Positions 2,077 through 19,205 of a DNA stretch of 22,836 nt are shown here, piece after piece; the first letter of the stretch is position 1, and every line of letters begins with the position of its first letter. The notes beneath the pieces were generated by a model. That model did not search any database. It worked only from the letters and a program-made list of their open reading frames with translations, and had not been told where the DNA came from. Origin of the DNA: a virus. Where the stretch lies: positions 1-22,836 of the IMG/VR virus record IMGVR_UViG_3300031565_000402, one strand, 5' to 3'. The translations under genes were made by a program, and so were the position numbers.

Positions 2077-2661
2077 ATGTCAGGAGTTCCGTATATTATT
2101 GAAGAGTCAGGTAATGGTGAAAGAGTTTATGATTTATATTCAAGGTTGTTGAAAGATAGGATAGTTTTTATAGGTGAAGAGTTCACATCTTCGTTAGCAA
2201 ATTCAGTTGTAGCTCAGTTACTATTTTTAGAATCAGACAATAACGAAAAAGATATAACAGTGTATGTTAATAGTCCAGGCGGTCAGGTGTCCGCTTGTTT
2301 GTCTATATACGATGCTATGAATTATGTAAAACCTGATGTATCTACTATTTGTGTAGGTCAGGCAGCTAGTGCAGCTGCTTTTGTTTTATCAGCGGGTACT
2401 AAAGGTAAACGTTTTGCATTGAAAAATTCTCGTATAATGATGCACCAAATCTCTGGTGGAGCTGTAGGTCATATAGAGGATATGAAACGAACAATGGATG
2501 AAGTAAATAAATTGAATTTTATATTACTTACAGAATTATCAAAAACCACAGGTAAGACTATGAATAAATTAAAAAAGGATTTAGAAAGAGATTATTACAT
2601 AAGTCCTGAAGAAGCTAAGAAATATGGAGTAATTGACGAAGTATTATATAGTAGGGAGTAA
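2077..2661 (+). CDS. clpP: ClpP-family serine protease, 194 aa
   Basis: The whole ClpP fold can be followed: RIVFIGEEF, YVNSPGGQVSA, the nucleophile elbow GQAASAAAF with Ser98, MMHQ with His123, and LERDYYISPEEAKKYGVID with Asp172. All three catalytic residues and the oxyanion-hole GG are present, and the length matches cellular ClpP. AGGAGGA sits 6 nt before the start. Cellular ClpP forms a 14-mer that degrades unfolded substrates fed by Clp ATPases; a phage copy would need a host or phage ATPase partner. A separate head protease (18111) makes a prohead maturation role unlikely. It is followed after 4 bp by the coiled-coil gene. Confidence 0.93.
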   Translation: MSGVPYIIEESGNGERVYDLYSRLLKDRIVFIGEEFTSSLANSVVAQLLFLESDNNEKDITVYVNSPGGQVSACLSIYDAMNYVKPDVSTICVGQAASAAAFVLSAGTKGKRFALKNSRIMMHQISGGAVGHIEDMKRTMDEVNKLNFILLTELSKTTGKTMNKLKKDLERDYYISPEEAKKYGVIDEVLYSRE

Positions 2662-2665
2662 TTAC

Positions 2666-3472
2666 ATGGTTGATAATAAACAAATAGTATATAGAAAAGA
2701 ACTTCCACCAAAGGCTACTAAACAATTAGGCAGAGGAGGTCCACGAGATATGCAGAGGCGTCAGGGAGTTGGTTCTGCTTCTATTAATATGCCTAAGATT
2801 GATATGGAGGCTTTAAAAGAAGTTTTACTAAATAACAAAGAAGCACGAGAAGAACTTAAAGTAGAAATACGTAAAGAGATGAATGAAGTAAAAGATTTGG
2901 TAGATTCTAGTAGAAATATTGAAGGACTAGGTTTACCTTTTGATGTGGTTGAGCAAAAAATTAAAGAAGCGGTCGAGCATACGACGCAACAGGTGCGTCA
3001 AAGATACGAAAGTGGTATTGGTAGTCTAAATAGTCAATTAAACGCAGCCAAGGGTCAAATTAAGAGCCTCAACACACAAGTAGACCAGTATGTGCAAGAA
3101 TGTAATACGTTAAAAGAGCAAATAATAACTAAAGATAAAAAAATAGAAGAAAAAGATAGGGATATTTCTGATTTGAGATCAAATCAAAATGACGAGGTAG
3201 GCGAATTAAAATTAAAAATTATGGATCTTATAGACAAAATAAAATCAGGTAAAATAACACAATACGACTACCATGATGACAGACCTGTAATAGACGAAAA
3301 AATATTTATAGATCCTATTAGTGAAGTTGTTACAGAACTTGATTCTCATATAAATGTCGATGTGTCTATAGAAGGTGATTCTAGACGTGATATGAAAGCT
3401 GATGTAGCAAAGCTTAAAAATTTATTAGATAATAAAAAGTTTAAGCCTACAAGTATAAGTATTAATGAGTAA
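2666..3472 (+). CDS. coiled-coil protein between ClpP and actin-like genes, 268 aa
   Basis: The N-terminal 45 residues are basic and Gly/Pro-rich, probably disordered. Residues about 50-200 are strongly helical, and the stretch around 110-200 shows heptad-like Leu/Ile spacing with many Glu, Lys and Gln. A compact C-terminal part (about 205-268) is more mixed. ATG 2666 is chosen because GGGAG lies about 7 nt upstream; an earlier in-frame codon at 2633 would sit inside clpP. The gene lies 4 bp after clpP and 13 bp before the actin-like gene, so the three are probably made together. A filament adaptor, ClpP substrate selector or scaffold are possibilities; no family was recognised. Confidence 0.7.
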   Translation: MVDNKQIVYRKELPPKATKQLGRGGPRDMQRRQGVGSASINMPKIDMEALKEVLLNNKEAREELKVEIRKEMNEVKDLVDSSRNIEGLGLPFDVVEQKIKEAVEHTTQQVRQRYESGIGSLNSQLNAAKGQIKSLNTQVDQYVQECNTLKEQIITKDKKIEEKDRDISDLRSNQNDEVGELKLKIMDLIDKIKSGKITQYDYHDDRPVIDEKIFIDPISEVVTELDSHINVDVSIEGDSRRDMKADVAKLKNLLDNKKFKPTSISINE

Positions 3473-3485
3473 AGGAGGATTTACT

Positions 3486-4478
3486 ATGAGTGGAGTTGGA
3501 TTAGATATAGGAACTAATATGTTAGTTTCTGCAATTATGGACGAGGAAGGTAATACAGTTTATAAACGACAACGAGATGCTTTTCTTCGTATCACACCTA
3601 AATCTAAGGTTAACCAAAAAAGTATTAGGATGGCATTAGAAAATAGAAAAGCTAATTTTATTATAGATGAATCTGGTGATTTTATAGTGGTTGGTGAAGA
3701 TGCTTTAATTATGGCTAATGAACGAAGTGTGGACGCTAGACGTCCTATGAGTAAAGGTGTGTTATCACCTAAAGAAAAAGATTCATTACCAATGATTAAA
3801 TTAATAATAAAAAGTATAGTAGGTGATGGTAATGGAGACAGTAACTTAGTATTTTCAGTTCCAGCTGAGCCTGTAGATGGCGAGTTTGATATATTTTTTC
3901 ATACAGAAATGATGAAATCGTATATTAAAGAAATGGGATTTGAAGCTACACCTATAAACGAAGCATTTGCAATAGCATTTTCAGAACTATTAGATGATAA
4001 TTTGACAGGTATGTGTCTATCTTTTGGTGCAGGTATGGTTAATACCGCAGTGTGCTATGAAGGTGACCCTATAATTCAGTTCTCATTAATCAGGGGTGGT
4101 GATTGGATAGACCAGTCAGTTGGTAAAGCTATGGATGAACGTGCTTCTTTGATTCAGATAGAAAAAGAAGAGGGTAATATAGATCTTCTTAATCCTGAAG
4201 GTAAGATACAGGAGGCTATAACTGTTTATTACAATGTATTAATAAATTATGCATTAGATAATATTATATATGAATTAAACAGAGCTAAACTTCCTTCGTT
4301 TAGAAAAGAAATACCAATAGTAGTATCTGGTGGATTAACAATAGCTAGAGGATTTGTTAATAAATTTGAGGATGCTATGGTAGGTAAGAAATTTGCATTT
4401 GATGTTAAGGAAGTTAGATTAGCCAAAGATCCAATGACAGCTGTTGCTAACGGATGTTTAATGGCGGCTGTATTGTAA
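3486..4478 (+). CDS. actin-like ATPase (MreB/ParM-type ASKHA fold), 330 aa
   Basis: The actin-superfamily motifs appear in order: phosphate-1 GLDIGTNM (5-12), connect-1 PINEAFAIAF (156-165), phosphate-2 LSFGAG (178-183), GGDWIDQSV (204-212) as in MreB, adenosine motif VVSGGLTIARGF (278-289) and connect-2 DPMTAVANG (315-323). Phosphate-2 normally starts with Asp (D-x-G-x-G); here it is Ser. The length fits a small bacterial actin. ATG 3486 is 6-7 nt after AGGAGGA. Plasmid and phage homologues form filaments that move or position DNA. The upstream repeats and adjacent coiled-coil gene are compatible with that, but an Hsp70-like or structural role is not excluded. Confidence 0.85.
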   Translation: MSGVGLDIGTNMLVSAIMDEEGNTVYKRQRDAFLRITPKSKVNQKSIRMALENRKANFIIDESGDFIVVGEDALIMANERSVDARRPMSKGVLSPKEKDSLPMIKLIIKSIVGDGNGDSNLVFSVPAEPVDGEFDIFFHTEMMKSYIKEMGFEATPINEAFAIAFSELLDDNLTGMCLSFGAGMVNTAVCYEGDPIIQFSLIRGGDWIDQSVGKAMDERASLIQIEKEEGNIDLLNPEGKIQEAITVYYNVLINYALDNIIYELNRAKLPSFRKEIPIVVSGGLTIARGFVNKFEDAMVGKKFAFDVKEVRLAKDPMTAVANGCLMAAVL

Positions 4479-8234: not shown

Positions 8235-8479
8235 TGGGAGAACGAAGATGGATTCCTGAAGGTGGTATAGGAAAGCATAATGATAAAATACGTAAAGAAA
8301 GTAAAATAGCAGACTCAAAGAATTTACCTTACACTATATCAAGACCTCCTATAAGAAAATCATATACATGGTTTGAGTGTGAAAAATGTGGACATGTTTT
8401 TAACGCTCCTAAAGGCACGATAATGGTGATATGTTCTGAATGTAATAAACTTACAAATGCGAGGGTATTAAATGAGTAG
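8234..8479 (+). CDS. zinc-ribbon protein, 81 aa
   Basis: Residues 46-72 contain two C-x2-C knuckles (Cys49/Cys52 in FECEKCGHVF and Cys67/Cys70 in ICSECNKL), separated by 14 residues: a classic zinc ribbon. The N-terminal 45 residues are basic and probably flexible. The gene overlaps the HD gene by 1 base and the NusG-like gene by 8, so it is translated within the cluster. Zinc ribbons of this kind bind nucleic acid or polymerase subunits. Next to a NusG-like gene, a role in transcription is possible but not shown. Confidence 0.7.
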   Translation: MGERRWIPEGGIGKHNDKIRKESKIADSKNLPYTISRPPIRKSYTWFECEKCGHVFNAPKGTIMVICSECNKLTNARVLNE

Positions 8480-8969
8480 TTGGCATGTTTGGGCTGTTAC
8501 AGCTAATAGGCATAGGCGTATTATGGAGTTTTTATCTGAATTAAAAAGTACAGAACCCAAAGTTATAGAAGATTTTATATATCCAATGGCAGAAAAGGAG
8601 TATAAAACTAAAAAAGGTACTAGAATAAAAGAAATACCTATTTACTCAAATTATATATTTATAAAGTATAACAACAATATAGTTACAGATGATAGTATAG
8701 AAAAGTGTAATTGGATATCAAGTTATGTTGGTAAATGTTCAGATGATGAAATATTAAGAGTTCAGGAACAGAACAGGTGTGACTATGCTGATATGACACC
8801 TACTACACATCTATGTAAAGGTGATGTGGTAAAATTAATTCAAACACCATTCATTGGATGGGTTGCTACTATAGTTGATATAGATGGTGATAAGTTATCT
8901 GTTAGTATTGAAATTTTAGGTTCTGAGCGAATTATAAAGTGTAACGTAAGTGACGTACATATAATGTAA
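8472..8969 (+). CDS. NusG-like transcription elongation factor, 165 aa
   Basis: The N-terminal half fits an NGN domain: WHVWAVTANRHRRIMEFL, with the typical strand and helix start, and IPIYSNYIFIKY in place of the usual P-G-Y-x-x-V. Residues 112-165 (LCKGDVVKLIQTPFIGWVATIVDIDGDKLSVSIEILG) match a KOW domain, with GD-V-x-I-x-x-x-P-F. NusG-family proteins bind RNA polymerase and act in pausing, termination or antitermination. A phage copy may redirect host polymerase into the late genes downstream. It overlaps the zinc-ribbon gene by 8 bp and is about 16 bp before the next gene. Confidence 0.8.
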   Translation: MSSWHVWAVTANRHRRIMEFLSELKSTEPKVIEDFIYPMAEKEYKTKKGTRIKEIPIYSNYIFIKYNNNIVTDDSIEKCNWISSYVGKCSDDEILRVQEQNRCDYADMTPTTHLCKGDVVKLIQTPFIGWVATIVDIDGDKLSVSIEILGSERIIKCNVSDVHIM

Positions 8970-9430: not shown

Positions 9431-10867
9431 GTGAAAAAACTATCTATTGAATATATAAATAATGAATTTAATAAATGTGGATATAAACTACTTACTACTA
9501 ATTATATTAACAGTAGATGTAAATTAGATTATATATGTCCTAATGGACATAAACATTCTATTTCATGGAATGGATGGAAAAAAGGTGATAGATGTCCATA
9601 CTGTTCAAATTTAGCAAAACCAACTATAGAATTTATAAAAGAATGCATTAGTAATGAAGGATATACATTGATATCCACTGAATATGTTAATGCAAAAACT
9701 AATATAGAGTTAATATGTAATAACGGGCATATCTTTTATATTACATGGTCTAACTGGAAAAATAAAACACGACCAAGAAGATGTCCTCATTGTTCTAAAA
9801 GACCGCCAATAGATATAGAATTTGTAAAACATAATATTGAATCAGGTGGGTATAAGTTAATATCTAATCAATATATAAATGCCAAAACTAAGCTAGAATT
9901 AATATGTTCTAATAATCATACATATAATGTAAGCTGGGATAATTGGTCTACTAAAAATAATAGATGTCCAATATGTAATTCAAACGGCGTATCAGTAGCT
10001 GAAAAATTACTATTTAAAACTATTAGTAGTTATTATAACAATACATTAATTATAGAAAATGATAGATCTATAATTACACCGTATGAACTAGATATTGTTA
10101 TTCCAGATAAAAAAATTGCCATTGAATATTGCGGACTTTATTGGCATTCAGAATTAGCTGGAAAAGATAGAAACTATCATTTAAACAAGCTGAATTTATG
10201 TAACGAAAAAGGTTATAAATTAATAACTGTTTTTGAAGATGAGTGGTTATTAAAAAAAGATATTGTTATTAGTAGATTAAAAAATATATTAGGTATAGAT
10301 GATAATATAACCAGACTATATGCTAGATTATGTGTAGTTAAAGAAATATCTACTAATGAGGCTTCTACTTTTTGTAGTAAATATCATTTACAGGGTTATA
10401 ATGGGTCTAGTATAAAGCTAGGACTGTTTTATGATAATGAATTGGTGTCTGTGATGACATTTTCAAAACAATCTATATCTAAAGGTAGTTACCACACTAA
10501 CGGTGTGTGGGAATTACAGAGGTTTTGTTCAAAAACAAATCATATTATAATTGGTGGATCATCAAAATTACTAAAGTATTTTGAGAGAACTTATCAATGG
10601 AAAAAGATAATATCCTATGCTGATAGAAGATGGTCTGATGGTAATTTATATGATAAACTGAACTTTAAGTTTGAATATTATACTAAATGTAACTATTGGT
10701 ATTTTTCTGAAAGAGAATATCCTAGGCGTAGACACAGATTTACGTTACGAAAGTCAAGTTCTATGGTTACAGGAACAGAGTGGCAGAATAGAATCAATGA
10801 AGGTTGGGACAGAATATGGGATTGTGGTAATTTAAAATATGTAAAATATAATTTGAAAGGTATATAA
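9431..10867 (+). CDS. free-standing homing endonuclease, zinc repeats plus Vsr/EDxHD nuclease, 478 aa
   Basis: Residues 5-185 are three related units of about 60 aa, each with a GY.L(I/L)....YIN strand, C..(N/G)H and a CP.C pair: treble-clef-like zinc domains of the DUF723 kind. Residues about 190-295 carry the catalytic core: YELDIVIPDKKIAIEYCGLYWHSE, with Asp221, Glu232 and His239, then YKLITVFEDEW, as in EDxHD (Vsr-like) homing enzymes such as I-Bth0305I. The last 180 residues form another domain often seen at the end of such proteins. Start GTG 9431 follows AAGGA by about 10 nt. It lies between the NUMOD3 gene and the small terminase gene. Confidence 0.85.
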   Translation: MKKLSIEYINNEFNKCGYKLLTTNYINSRCKLDYICPNGHKHSISWNGWKKGDRCPYCSNLAKPTIEFIKECISNEGYTLISTEYVNAKTNIELICNNGHIFYITWSNWKNKTRPRRCPHCSKRPPIDIEFVKHNIESGGYKLISNQYINAKTKLELICSNNHTYNVSWDNWSTKNNRCPICNSNGVSVAEKLLFKTISSYYNNTLIIENDRSIITPYELDIVIPDKKIAIEYCGLYWHSELAGKDRNYHLNKLNLCNEKGYKLITVFEDEWLLKKDIVISRLKNILGIDDNITRLYARLCVVKEISTNEASTFCSKYHLQGYNGSSIKLGLFYDNELVSVMTFSKQSISKGSYHTNGVWELQRFCSKTNHIIIGGSSKLLKYFERTYQWKKIISYADRRWSDGNLYDKLNFKFEYYTKCNYWYFSEREYPRRRHRFTLRKSSSMVTGTEWQNRINEGWDRIWDCGNLKYVKYNLKGI

Positions 10868-11397: not shown

Positions 11398-14300
11398 ATG
11401 CCGGTAGATATTTATGAAGATATGGAGTTATTGTTTAATAGAGGCGGCTCATTAGTTGATTTCTATAGAAACTATCCTATATTAGCTGCTTATGATTTAT
11501 TAAAAGTTGATTTAGCTCCTATACAGCGTATAGTGCTTAATGATATGTGGTTTAAGAATTATTGTATATCAGTGGCTGGTCGTGGTTTTGGAAAAAGCCA
11601 GGATATTAATAGCTTAACTCATTTTGATAATAAAGGTTTGGTTTATTTATATGAAGAACTGCCACCAATTCCTTCTTATCTAAGTGATGGTGAAGAGGAA
11701 ATAATAGATTGGGATGATAGGATATATACTTCAGAAGGTTTTAAACCTACTAAAAGACTGTGTTTAGAAAGTAATATAGAGGGTAAACGTATTGAGACTT
11801 ATAGTGGATTTGTAAATAGGGGATCTAATCATCACCCATTACTTACAATTAATGATAATTGTGATTTTATATATAAAAGTTTATCTGATTTTATTCCTGG
11901 TGATACTGTATGTATTCAGCGTAATCAAAATATATTCGGTGGTTTAATTATAGATAGTGCTGACGCTTATTTAATTGGTTTATTTGTTGGATGTGGTTGT
12001 GTAGACATTAATGATAACCAAAGTGTTATTAGTAGTGAATTGAGTATAAAAAACTTTTGTATTGATTATTGTATTAATAACAAGGTTGATTATAAAATAA
12101 CTTATGATAAAAGAACTGAAAGTGCTGATAAGATATTATTTGAAGAATTTGATTATTTTTTCTACAAATATAAAATTAATAAATTAGTCCCATATTCAAT
12201 AAGAACATCTAGTCGTGAATCACAGATATCATTTCTACAAGGTTATTTTGATATAAATAGTGATGTTAATACAGATGGTAGTGTGTCATGCTGTTCTTTG
12301 TATAGAAAATTACTAGAAGAGATTCAATTAATGCTTCTTAACTTTGGTATTACAAGTAGATTGTATGAAAAAAGAATTAAATCTGAATTGAATAAATCTT
12401 ATTTCTTAGATATATCTTCAGAAGACGCTTATAGATTTAAAGAACTAATAGGTTTTACACTTTATAGAAAACAAAATATATTAGATAGTTACTATGACAC
12501 AGAAGAATTAGATATAGACAAGGCTGTTATACCTTATGTATTTGATTTATGTGCTAAAATATCTAAATATTATGATGATGTGTATAAAGTTAAAATAAAA
12601 CCAAATCTCACCGTTGAATTATCTAATAAAAATGAATTAACATATAAAAGTATTGTTGAATTTTTAACTCAATGTAAATACGTTATTAATAATGGATTTG
12701 ATTTAGTTGGAGTTAAACACGATATAGAGAAATTATACAATATACTATACTATAACTATTATTTTGACACTATAGTATCAGTAGATGACTGGAAGGGTGA
12801 TTGTTATGATTTCGAAATTAGTATGGACGGAGAACCTAATTATTTTACTAATGGTTTTATAAACCATAATACTTTTTTGTTAGGTATAAACGCAGTGTTA
12901 CATGCTATGTTGTATCCTGGATATAGGATAGGATTAATAGGACCGTCTTTTAGACAAAGTCTTGTATTATCAGATACTTGTACTACTTTCTGGACGGATG
13001 AAGGTTTAAAATCTACACCTATAGAGTTTTATAATTCTATAAAATCGAACCATACATTAGTTCAGTCATCTGAATCACAAAATAAAATTGTTAGTAAATG
13101 GGAGAATCCAGATAGAGCATGTAGATATATAAAAACCACTAAAGGGTTTGAATTGTCTGGGACTGTTGATCATGCTATACAAGTATTAGATGATAAATGT
13201 AATATAGTTTTTAAAGATTTACAGGATGTGTCTATTGATGATAACATAGTTATTAAAACAGGATTTAATTATTTTGGTAATGATAACATATTACCTAAAT
13301 GTAATCTTATTGGTGATTGGCGTACTAATAGTTGTAAATTTCCTACTGAATTAACATCAGACATGTCCTATTTATTTGGATTAATTATAGGGGATGGTTG
13401 TGTGTCATATAAACCAAGGAAATACAGAGTTAATTTTACTTCAATTGATGATGATTTATTGGAATATTTTAAAAAATATATGTGTGAATACTTTGGTATA
13501 GATAATGTTGGTAGTTACCAAAAAACTGATGCTGGATGTATTCAGTTAAATATTTCAAATAAAAATTTATGTGATTTTTTAATTGAATGCGGATTTACTA
13601 GTACTACTGCATTAGATAAAAAAATACCAACATCTATAAAAAAAGCATCCAAGGAAAACATTGTTAATTTTTTGAGTGGTTTATTTGATACTGATGGTAG
13701 TTGTTACACACAAAACTATGATCATTACAATTCATGTGAAGTATCTTTAAGTACTAGTTCTTTACAATTAGCTAAAGAAGTTCAATCAGTTCTACTTAAT
13801 TTAGGTATAATATCTAGTTTTTGCGTTAGTGGTAAGGCATGTAGGAAAAAACTAATAGGTAGAGATAAGTATTCTGAATGTGCTACATCTTATAAAGTTA
13901 GAATAACATGGTATAGTAATTTAATAAAATTTAGGGATATTATAGGTTTTAGGTGTGAATATAAATTAAATAAACTGAATGGTTTTATAAATGGATTAAA
14001 GAATAGAAAGAGAACACATAGTATAGTTTATGATTTAGGTCTTCCAAAGAATATAATTTCTAAAGATTATGATAAGTTTTTAGAGTATAAGAACAAAGGA
14101 TTTTATTTTGTTAAGATGGTTGAATCAGATTATTTTTTTGCACCGACTATTGATGCTGAGGTAGAAAATGAATCTTGTTATTGGGCAGGTGGTTTTATAA
14201 ATCATAATTCAAAGATGATATTTGCCGAAGTTGAAAAACTTTATCAAAGAGCTCCACTTTTAAGAGAGGCTACAGAAAAGAAACCAACTAGAGGCGCTGA

Positions 14301-15630
14301 TACGTGTTTTCTTAAATTCAAAGGCACCGATATTTCTAACGGAAGTTATATAGAGGCATTACCTATAGGTGTTGATGGTGCTAAAATTAGAGGGTCACGT
14401 TTTTATCTAATAGAAATAGACGAGTTAGCTCAGATGCCTACTGATATAATTGATATGGTAATTAGACCAATGGCAGCTGTTCAATTAGAGCCTATGTTAA
14501 AGGTGCGTGAAATCGAACGTATACAGAAATTAATTGATGAAGGATTGGCAACAGAAGATGATATGATTGAAGATTCAGCTAATAAGATGATAATGACTTC
14601 ATCTGGGTATTATAAATTTAATCATATGTGGCATAGAATGAAATCATATTGGAAAGCCATGAAGGAAGAAGGTACTAATACTAAATACGCAGTTCATCAA
14701 GTACCCTATCAGATGTTACCTAAAGGATTTCTGGATATGAACAATGTCAACGAAGCTCGTAGAACTATGTCTAATATAGAGTTTATGATGGAATATGAAG
14801 CAGCTATGGTAGCTGATAGTGAGGGATTTTTTAAAGCTTCGTTACTAGAATCGTGTACTAGAGATAGTGATTTTACTATAAAATTAAGAGGTGAATCTGG
14901 TAAGGAATATATACTTGGAATAGATCCAAATCAAGGTGGATCAGCTTTATTTGGATTAATTGTGGTAGAGCTTGGATCACCAAATAAGATAGTGTATGTG
15001 CGCGGTATTAAAAAACAATCAACGCAAGAAATGACTAAATCAGTGCAGAGATTGATAAGTAGTTTTAATATAGTAAGAATATTTATGGATGCTCAAGGTG
15101 GTGGAAACGCAATAAAAGATTTACTAGCAGAGGGATACGGTGATAATACACCAATATTAGATATGGACGATGATGATACTAAATATTTACATGGACGACG
15201 TATATTACGTATGATTAATTTTTCTCCTACTTGGATATCAGATGCCAACTTTGATACACTATCATTACTTGAAAACAATAGATTAAGATTCCCTAATATA
15301 CCTAGAACATCATCAGAAATAGAAGAACGTATGTATGATGAGGTAAAGATGTTAAAGTCTCAGATGCTAAGTATAATAGTTACAGAAACAGCTAGAGGCG
15401 TAAGACACTTTGATACACCTAAAAAAGGTCAAAATAAGGATTTATATTCAGCTATGATATTGGCATCTTATGGTGTGAAAGAAATGACTAATACTATGGA
15501 ACGGGTTGATCCAAAATTAACTGAAGGTCTTATTAGGCATCATAGTGGAACTAATACGTTCACTTCAAACAAAATTACTGGTGTTGGTAAAGACTATATG
15601 AAAGACGCTGTGTTACAACGAAAACTATAA
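11398..15630 (+). CDS. terL: terminase large subunit precursor with two inteins, 1410 aa
   Basis: The host protein is split in three: 1-66, 492-520 and 938-1410, about 568 aa after splicing. Joined, the Walker A reads GRGFGK-T and the second junction GPSFRQ-SKMIF, both normal terminase sequences. The ATPase continues with Walker B LIEIDE (Asp1008, Glu1009) and coupling TSS. The C-terminal RNase H-like nuclease has its acids at Asp1176 (GIDPNQGG), Asp1231 (FMDAQGGG) and Asp1348 (NKDLYSA). It cuts and packages phage DNA into the prohead at the portal. The ATP site is incomplete until intein 1 leaves, so splicing is needed for activity. The gene starts 3 bp after the small subunit. Confidence 0.95.
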   Translation: MPVDIYEDMELLFNRGGSLVDFYRNYPILAAYDLLKVDLAPIQRIVLNDMWFKNYCISVAGRGFGKSQDINSLTHFDNKGLVYLYEELPPIPSYLSDGEEEIIDWDDRIYTSEGFKPTKRLCLESNIEGKRIETYSGFVNRGSNHHPLLTINDNCDFIYKSLSDFIPGDTVCIQRNQNIFGGLIIDSADAYLIGLFVGCGCVDINDNQSVISSELSIKNFCIDYCINNKVDYKITYDKRTESADKILFEEFDYFFYKYKINKLVPYSIRTSSRESQISFLQGYFDINSDVNTDGSVSCCSLYRKLLEEIQLMLLNFGITSRLYEKRIKSELNKSYFLDISSEDAYRFKELIGFTLYRKQNILDSYYDTEELDIDKAVIPYVFDLCAKISKYYDDVYKVKIKPNLTVELSNKNELTYKSIVEFLTQCKYVINNGFDLVGVKHDIEKLYNILYYNYYFDTIVSVDDWKGDCYDFEISMDGEPNYFTNGFINHNTFLLGINAVLHAMLYPGYRIGLIGPSFRQSLVLSDTCTTFWTDEGLKSTPIEFYNSIKSNHTLVQSSESQNKIVSKWENPDRACRYIKTTKGFELSGTVDHAIQVLDDKCNIVFKDLQDVSIDDNIVIKTGFNYFGNDNILPKCNLIGDWRTNSCKFPTELTSDMSYLFGLIIGDGCVSYKPRKYRVNFTSIDDDLLEYFKKYMCEYFGIDNVGSYQKTDAGCIQLNISNKNLCDFLIECGFTSTTALDKKIPTSIKKASKENIVNFLSGLFDTDGSCYTQNYDHYNSCEVSLSTSSLQLAKEVQSVLLNLGIISSFCVSGKACRKKLIGRDKYSECATSYKVRITWYSNLIKFRDIIGFRCEYKLNKLNGFINGLKNRKRTHSIVYDLGLPKNIISKDYDKFLEYKNKGFYFVKMVESDYFFAPTIDAEVENESCYWAGGFINHNSKMIFAEVEKLYQRAPLLREATEKKPTRGADTCFLKFKGTDISNGSYIEALPIGVDGAKIRGSRFYLIEIDELAQMPTDIIDMVIRPMAAVQLEPMLKVREIERIQKLIDEGLATEDDMIEDSANKMIMTSSGYYKFNHMWHRMKSYWKAMKEEGTNTKYAVHQVPYQMLPKGFLDMNNVNEARRTMSNIEFMMEYEAAMVADSEGFFKASLLESCTRDSDFTIKLRGESGKEYILGIDPNQGGSALFGLIVVELGSPNKIVYVRGIKKQSTQEMTKSVQRLISSFNIVRIFMDAQGGGNAIKDLLAEGYGDNTPILDMDDDDTKYLHGRRILRMINFSPTWISDANFDTLSLLENNRLRFPNIPRTSSEIEERMYDEVKMLKSQMLSIIVTETARGVRHFDTPKKGQNKDLYSAMILASYGVKEMTNTMERVDPKLTEGLIRHHSGTNTFTSNKITGVGKDYMKDAVLQRKL
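11596..12870 (+). mobile_element. intein 1 in terL, 425 aa, endonuclease domain degenerate
   Basis: It begins at Ser67 (SQDINSLTHFDNKG, block A with N-S-L in the usual D-(T/S)-x place) and ends at NGFINHN before Thr492. Block B is GSNHHPLLTI. Removing it restores Walker A GRGFGK-T; starting at the next residue, Gln68, would leave GKST and fits block A less well. The middle holds a LAGLIDADG endonuclease region: motif 1 LIGLFVGCGCV (residues 192-202) has Cys199 where the catalytic Asp belongs, and motif 2 GYFDINSD has Asn287 there. The splicing parts look intact; the endonuclease is probably dead. Confidence 0.9.
12958..14208 (+). mobile_element. intein 2 in terL, 417 aa, LAGLIDADG endonuclease intact
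   Basis: It begins at Ser521 (SLVLSDTCTTFWTDEG) and ends GGFINHN before Ser938. Block B is GTVDHAI. Excision joins GPSFRQ to SKMIF, a common terminase stretch. Both LAGLIDADG-type motifs keep their acids: GLIIGDGCV with Asp666 and LSGLFDTDGS with Asp766, so homing activity is likely. Only 29 terminase residues separate the two inteins. Nucleophile +1 is Ser and the penultimate residue His, as usual. Confidence 0.93.
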
Positions 15631-18110: not shown

Positions 18111-19205
18111 GTGTCTAAAAACAAACCTATACTACTAGAGGCTGAAATTAATATAATAGATAGTACTGAAGATCTTATGAGAGAAGTAGCTTCTATTGTA
18201 GAGTTTCCGAAAAATAAAACGCCTGATATGTTATTTTTTACTGGTTGCTTTGTTTCTTCTGGTGAAAATTTAAATCATGCTTATTTTATGCCATCTGAAT
18301 TAGTTAAATCATTTAATAGTATAATAAATAAACCACTTGACATAGAACACGAAGAAGATGTTATAGTGGGACATATATATTCTAGTGCGTTCGTAGATCA
18401 ATCTGGAAATAAACTAGAATTAGAAACTTTATCAACTATGGATGAAAAAGCACTTGATATGATGGATTTAGATATAATAATAGGTGGTATTATATATAAA
18501 AGTCGTTTTCCAGAGATGGCTGAAGAGGTTACAGATGATAAATGGAAACTATCAATGGAGACGTATTTTCAGGACTATGATATTAAAGTAGGTAACTTAA
18601 TTATGAGTAGACAGGAAGCTGAAGTTATGGGACTTGCATCGTTTGATAATATTGGTAGAATTGCAGATATAATCAAAGGTGGTGTACAAGTAGCTTCTGG
18701 TGAAATAGCAAGAGTACTAAGAGACCTTATGTTTTCTGGATGTGGTTTAGTAGAAAAACCCGCTAATCCTAGGTCTTTAATATTTACTACTGCCGCAGAA
18801 TCAAAAAATAAAAATAAAGAAGCTATTTTGGTTGATTTGGATAAAATAGACGGTGTAGGAGATATTGATATACCGATTAAAAAAACTAAAAAAACCAAAG
18901 CTGATATTAGTGCTGAAGATATTAGATCACAGACAAGTATTGGTATATGTGTAAGTTATAAAAAATATTTATATGCCAACGAACCTGTTGGCCCTGACAC
19001 TGAGATTTTACATGAAAATTGGTGTACGTTATATGAGTCTGGTTGTACTTCTTTTGGACGTGATACAACTGATCCAAATTGTTTACGTAATCAAATAGCA
19101 CAACAGGCAGCATCGTACGCCGAATCGAAGTTGTTAGAAATGAATAAAACAGATAAACGAGGCGGGTTATTAAAAGAATTAAAAAAAGTAATTAAAAAAA
19201 TATAA
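18111..19205 (+). CDS. head maturation (prohead) serine protease, 364 aa
   Basis: Residues about 35-225 match phage prohead proteases: NKPLDIEHEEDVIVGHI with catalytic His80, KLSMETYFQDYD with the nucleophile Ser148 at the usual (L/M)S(I/M) position, and GCGLVEKPANPRS, the characteristic V-x-x-P-A-N. It cleaves scaffold and capsid N-termini inside the prohead. The start is GTG 18111, with AGGAGGGG about 6 nt upstream. The last 130 residues are an extension with a Lys-rich linker, then a domain with Cys280, Cys305, Cys312 and Cys324. Gap upstream holds ATGTATACAT. Confidence 0.8.
   Translation: MSKNKPILLEAEINIIDSTEDLMREVASIVEFPKNKTPDMLFFTGCFVSSGENLNHAYFMPSELVKSFNSIINKPLDIEHEEDVIVGHIYSSAFVDQSGNKLELETLSTMDEKALDMMDLDIIIGGIIYKSRFPEMAEEVTDDKWKLSMETYFQDYDIKVGNLIMSRQEAEVMGLASFDNIGRIADIIKGGVQVASGEIARVLRDLMFSGCGLVEKPANPRSLIFTTAAESKNKNKEAILVDLDKIDGVGDIDIPIKKTKKTKADISAEDIRSQTSIGICVSYKKYLYANEPVGPDTEILHENWCTLYESGCTSFGRDTTDPNCLRNQIAQQAASYAESKLLEMNKTDKRGGLLKELKKVIKKI

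Follow-up and report, generated by a model that had tools for sequence, protein, structure and literature searches.

The 22.8-kb tailed-phage contig analyzed in this study (the whole stretch of DNA, hereafter the window) carries three closely packed genes, encoding in this order a canonical ClpP peptidase (clpP), an adaptor-like protein with a long helical middle (cc), and an actin-like ATPase of the volactin family. The trio recurs in about 40 related environmental phages, and apparently represents a conserved phage cytoskeletal module that has hitherto not been described. As an overall explanation, we lean toward a cytoskeletal module made of the actin and the cc adaptor, with ClpP remodelling the filament system.

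Organization of the clpP-cc-actin cluster

The clpP gene (194 aa) is located at 2077-2661, followed by cc (268 aa) at 2666-3472 and the actin gene (330 aa) at 3486-4478, all on the plus strand. The intergenic gaps are 4 nt between clpP and cc and 13 nt between cc and actin, in agreement with the first-pass annotation of this DNA, which had described three open reading frames 4 and 13 bp apart. The list of open reading frames puts the start of cc at TTG 2633 and that of actin at ATG 3465, but alignment with relatives favours ATG 2666 and ATG 3486, respectively. A purine run resembling a ribosome-binding site precedes each of the three starts, and a non-coding stretch of approximately 340 bp lies upstream of clpP. 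The scan for sigma-70 promoters gave matches no commoner than those in shuffled sequences.

Conservation of the trio among related phages

The gene arrangement was compared for a near clade of 47 loci (window included, with a few duplicates), 4 of which end too near the actin gene to judge the presence of clpP. Among the 43 loci reaching far enough upstream, clpP was found upstream of the cc-actin pair in 42, and the trio is therefore neither restricted to one phage, which would have counted against the proposal in the first-pass annotation, nor a chance arrangement, since it is conserved in tens of relatives. Neither gap exceeds 60 nt in 34 of these 42 loci, some of the genes overlapping or being separated by a few nt, and the exceptions with wider gaps are mostly insertions: cc is separated from actin by endonuclease-like genes in L022 and L044, and from clpP by an endonuclease-like gene in L037 and by a gene of 448 aa in L034. 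The distance from actin to the next shared gene ranges from 35 to 3822 nt across the near clade and the upstream genes change too; the trio behaves as a unit. Adjacency alone is no proof of joint function, because synteny extends to genes farther downstream (cold shock, dNMP kinase, HD and terminase).

The single exception, L014, carries the cc-actin pair and lacks clpP on a 20.5-kb contig, indicating that clpP has been dispensable at least once. For more distant volactin-bearing phages (approximately 38-43% identity), no clpP match was detected in the fetched flanks, and a search of the whole sequences gave no ClpP above 33% identity. The suspicion of an undescribed system, raised in the first-pass annotation, agrees with the literature searched, in which we found neither a description of such a trio nor any association of a phage ClpP with an actin.

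Identification of the actin-like ATPase as a volactin

The product of the third gene matched the Pfam family Volactin (PF25216; 1.8e-68) with 231.8 bits against a cut-off of 35, the alignment of residues 4-328 covering its full length. The AlphaFold model (pLDDT 93) has an actin fold, for which the nearest solved structures are MamK and MreB with TM of about 0.7. The original assignment as an ATPase of MreB/ParM type holds as far as the actin fold is concerned, but the family is Volactin, neither MreB nor ParM. Volactin is a cytoskeletal protein of haloarchaea that forms dynamic filaments in vivo, as shown for Haloferax volactin only (PMC10869688). From family and fold, we consider it highly probable that the phage protein forms filaments as well.

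A profile scan of IMG/VR yielded 378 viral stretches encoding relatives of this actin, the best 80 of them going down to approximately 38% identity, and a second scan, with each species represented by a single genome, yielded 247 relatives; of the 80 retained, most are haloarchaeal, together with Archaeoglobaceae, Omnitrophota, Acidobacteria and others. Within annotated phage records, matches were obtained in two uncultured huge phages only, PHROGs holds no family for the phage actin, and no report of volactin in phages was found in the literature searched.

The phosphate-2 loop of volactin (residues 179-186 of the window actin) is S-F-G-A-G-M in the place of a loop that carries an aspartate in MreB, ParM and actin, and in the family alignment Ser179 is nearly invariant. 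Two volactin genes (L016:383-1867 and L017:3067-5166) are interrupted by an intein within this phosphate-2 motif, inserted after GMCIS and ending with HN before CGAGM; it is full-length with a LAGLIDADG endonuclease in L017 and a mini-intein in L016.

Properties of the cc protein

The cc protein gave no domain match above any curated cut-off, and no match was obtained by tblastn against phage records, its relatives being found only through IMG/VR. Residues 89-195 (2930-3250, plus strand) show a strong hydrophobic periodicity near 3.6 residues, which was reached by none of 2000 shuffled sequences. By this periodicity the region is assigned as a long amphipathic helix. An unrecognized 268-aa coiled-coil protein had been proposed for this gene; the lack of recognized domains and the long helix are in agreement, and coiled coil is the likely reading of that helix. 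The relatives of cc are 174-450 aa in length, with conserved ends and a helical middle of very different length.

At the N-terminus, a basic motif (I.Y.K...K..GRGGPRD.Q; 2684-2755, plus strand) was recognized from invariant alignment columns of the clpP-carrying clade. Its GPRD element is present only in this clade plus L014 and is absent from the distant neighbours of volactin, which suggests a link with ClpP, even though the co-occurrence is no proof of such a link because the clade is probably of single origin. At the other end, the C-terminal module (3281-3433, plus strand) consists of a KIFIDP motif and an amphipathic helix (RDMKADVAKLKNLLDN); this proposed actin-binding tail recurs beside distant volactins.

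The layout of cc, which adjoins the actin and ends in a conserved C-terminal helix preceded by a linker of variable sequence and length, fits that of arcadin-2 and ParR. In the arcade cluster of Pyrobaculum, the C-terminal helix of arcadin-2, situated after a non-conserved linker, binds a hydrophobic groove of crenactin, and ParR uses the same site on ParM (PMC5173319). The likeness to the crenactin-arcadin-2 pair concerns this layout (PMC5173319), whereas its actin is of another family, arcadin-2 depolymerizes filaments and no ClpP has been reported there.

ParMRC and AlpAC are likewise two-gene systems of actin and adaptor, comparable to the cc-actin pair, and AlpAC is phage-encoded (PMC4446434). 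We therefore considered that the trio might serve DNA positioning or partition in the manner of ParMRC and AlpAC, the basic N-terminus of cc sitting on phage DNA, the filament moving the genome and ClpP resetting the system. This reading, which we regard as unlikely, has a phage precedent in the adaptor-actin operon AlpA/AlpC of prophage CGP3 (PMC4446434), and it could draw on the basic character of the cc N-terminus and on three tandem 24-bp palindromes at 1727-1798 upstream of the operon. The adaptors of ParMRC and AlpAC, however, bind DNA at defined repeats and serve actins of another family, whereas for the cc-actin locus we recognized neither a DNA-binding domain in cc nor repeats common to the carriers of the trio. 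Each 24-bp repeat is a palindrome of GCCCTA-AAAA-TAGGGC, and the array lies at the 3' end of a wHTH/RepO-like gene, recurring only in L004, L005 and L006 as three tandem palindromes of 23-25 bp at the same place with different sequence. Other trio-bearing relatives have tail-fibre-like genes at this position and no such repeats. The palindromes at 1727-1798 were rejected as a centromere for the actin, being missing in most of the trio-bearing relatives.

Association of the cc tail with other volactins

As a measure of tail recurrence, a 16-residue matrix of the near-clade cc tail was applied to genes around other volactins. A score of at least 4 was given by 32 of the 156 volactin neighbours versus 31 of the remaining 1204 genes (Fisher 2e-15, a value that ignores relatedness). 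In 75 of 115 loci, the gene with the highest score was the one directly adjoining the actin. Several high scorers counted as non-neighbours (L063, L066, L070, L081, L151 and L168) apparently encode proteins of this type too, displaced from the actin by about one more gene. When the matrix was trained on haloarchaeal tails and tested on viruses and bacteria, the result pointed in the same direction (3e-7, again ignoring relatedness). In terms of lineages, we estimate that perhaps six or seven independent groups underlie the pattern. Profile-profile comparison of the tail was significant for the neighbours in Desulfobacterales/Acidobacteria (E 4e-5) and not for other groups, and the C-terminal-module profile, when run on the full set of ORFs, did not reach beyond the near clade; the wider relationships are weaker, come from short-motif enrichment, and concern a tail that is short outside the near clade.

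The C-terminal module thus accompanies the actin where no ClpP adjoins it, in archaea and bacteria as well as in phages, and L014 has the cc-actin pair but no ClpP. For these two reasons, we consider that cc is probably the adaptor of the actin, and not that of ClpP as the first-pass annotation had suggested; this assignment takes tail binding to the actin from the sequence pattern.

The N-terminal halves of the tail-bearing proteins differ from each other, those of L050, L055 and L059 having a TM helix, the haloarchaeal ones (Pfam DUF7139) four TM segments, and cc of the window a soluble helical rod. Volactin of Haloferax volcanii (VolA, HVO_2015) belongs to the same actin family as the phage actin over its whole length, and its neighbour gene also has a C-terminal tail similar to that of cc. 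The haloarchaeal protein, however, is an archaeal cell-shape protein, its neighbour is the four-TM DUF7139 protein instead of a soluble coiled coil, and its gene has no adjoining clpP. In haloarchaeal loci (for instance L113:4931-5863), the DUF7139 gene is located upstream of volactin, and its cytosolic-looking tail ends in a similar C-terminal helix. On sequence grounds, the DUF7139 protein is a candidate membrane anchor for haloarchaeal volactin.

Contact of volactin filaments with the membrane is restricted to the filament tips, and the binding partners are not known (PMC10869688). If the tail binds the actin, the missing partner of volactin would be identified (DUF7139 in haloarchaea), a proposal open to test in viruses as well as in archaea and bacteria. 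Actins of the volactin type occur commonly among viral contigs and also in some bacterial genomes, and the adjoining gene often has a similar short tail; the shared tail points to a widespread system of actin plus anchor, joined to a protease in this phage group.

As a separate observation, the distant volactin phages L063, L066, L070, L073 and L082 have a gene for a Dps/ferritin-like protein, recognized by eye, that separates the actin from the adaptor bearing the tail.

Properties of the phage ClpP

The ClpP encoded at the head of the trio (Pfam PF00574, 1.2e-69) scored 264.6 bits against the curated canonical subfamily NF001368, above its cut-off of 249, and 259.4 bits against the stricter equivalog TIGR00493, below its cut-off of 308.6. 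A solved bacterial ClpP is matched end to end (E 2e-66). In a comparison of 35 distinct phage ClpPs, every one carries the triad Ser98/His123/Asp172, bearing out the initial view of a catalytically complete enzyme, and Tyr63 and Leu115, which we take to be positions of the ATPase-docking cleft, are likewise invariant. By these sequence comparisons, the phage ClpP is classified as canonical and catalytically intact. It probably uses a host Clp ATPase, on which it presumably depends because no AAA_2-type unfoldase was detected over the cut-off in 17 related records, some of them possibly fragments.

ClpP-like proteases mature the heads of many phages, and the phage ClpP indeed matches PHROG 94 (1e-40). 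It is nevertheless very improbable that this ClpP is the head-maturation protease, with its site beside the actin being incidental: it passes the cut-off for canonical ClpP and fails that for the head-maturation protease NF045542 (82.9 bits, cut-off 120), and the portal gene is approximately 13.5 kb away from clpP, which lies outside the head gene cluster. In addition, the ORF at 18111-19205, situated in this clade between the genes for portal and capsid, encodes another conserved protein whose His80 and Ser148 are invariant and which is a candidate for the prohead protease; its model is of low confidence (pLDDT 62) and resembles herpesvirus assemblin, the best match being E 0.045 and none significant. 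ClpP as prohead protease is disfavoured by both the subfamily cut-offs and this candidate, in line with the earlier statement that the phage has its own prohead protease and does not need ClpP for head maturation.

A more serious alternative is that cc and the actin work together as a pair, and that ClpP is merely co-transcribed with them as a protease for host takeover or proteostasis, which would degrade host proteins together with host ClpX or ClpC and have no role for the filament. We give it real weight while regarding it as not the likely case. Canonical ClpP was found in 160 phage records at E<=1e-10, many of them unrelated, and a host-directed action has been proposed for ClpP of jumbo phages (PMC7824862). 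The distant volactin phages without canonical ClpP, together with the cc-actin pair of L014, fit this alternative as well. Against it, clpP is located directly upstream of cc in nearly all the near-clade phages, despite wide divergence and changing flanking genes. Jumbo and other phages also carry canonical ClpP, whereas in the clade of the window clpP is stably coupled to the actin-adaptor pair. That ClpP is functionally tied to the filament is, in our judgement, a possibility only a little short of even.

A working model of the module

In the explanation toward which we lean, the volactin-type actin would polymerize and the helical middle of cc would form an extended rod, probably oligomeric, while the FIDP motif and the C-terminal helix of cc would bind the actin, as arcadin-2 does on crenactin and ParR on ParM. 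The basic N-terminus of cc would hold the cargo that is to be moved or positioned, most probably either a component of the phage or a structure of the host. More generally, the N-terminal part of the tail-bearing proteins may set the attachment of the filament, to the membrane in haloarchaea and some phages and to a cargo in the phage of the window. The phage ClpP, made from the same operon and with no phage unfoldase found over the cut-off in 17 related records, would probably dock on a host Clp ATPase, and its likeliest role would be the turnover of cc, of the actin or of a competing host protein, by which the filament could be remodelled at the right stage. Action of ClpXP on FtsZ and MinD is known (PMC3983244, PMC7857489). 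A stable canonical ClpP within one phage group would represent an unusual viral cytoskeleton packaged with its own protease. A more specific version, in which cc binds volactin filaments through the tail and recruits ClpP plus the host unfoldase through GPRD, and in which the tail is the mark of volactin anchors in general, DUF7139 among them, appears improbable to us.

Other genes in the window

Three further genes of the window were noted. The large terminase gene (11398-15630; 1410 aa) contains two inteins with LAGLIDADG domains. The gene at 8472-8969, upstream of the terminase genes, encodes a NusG-like transcription factor and is conserved throughout the clade. The product of 9431-10867 (478 aa) combines repeated N-terminal Cys-rich units, a part resembling REase_MTES_1575 and a Mom-like acetyltransferase domain, a composition that makes it a probable DNA modification or homing gene.
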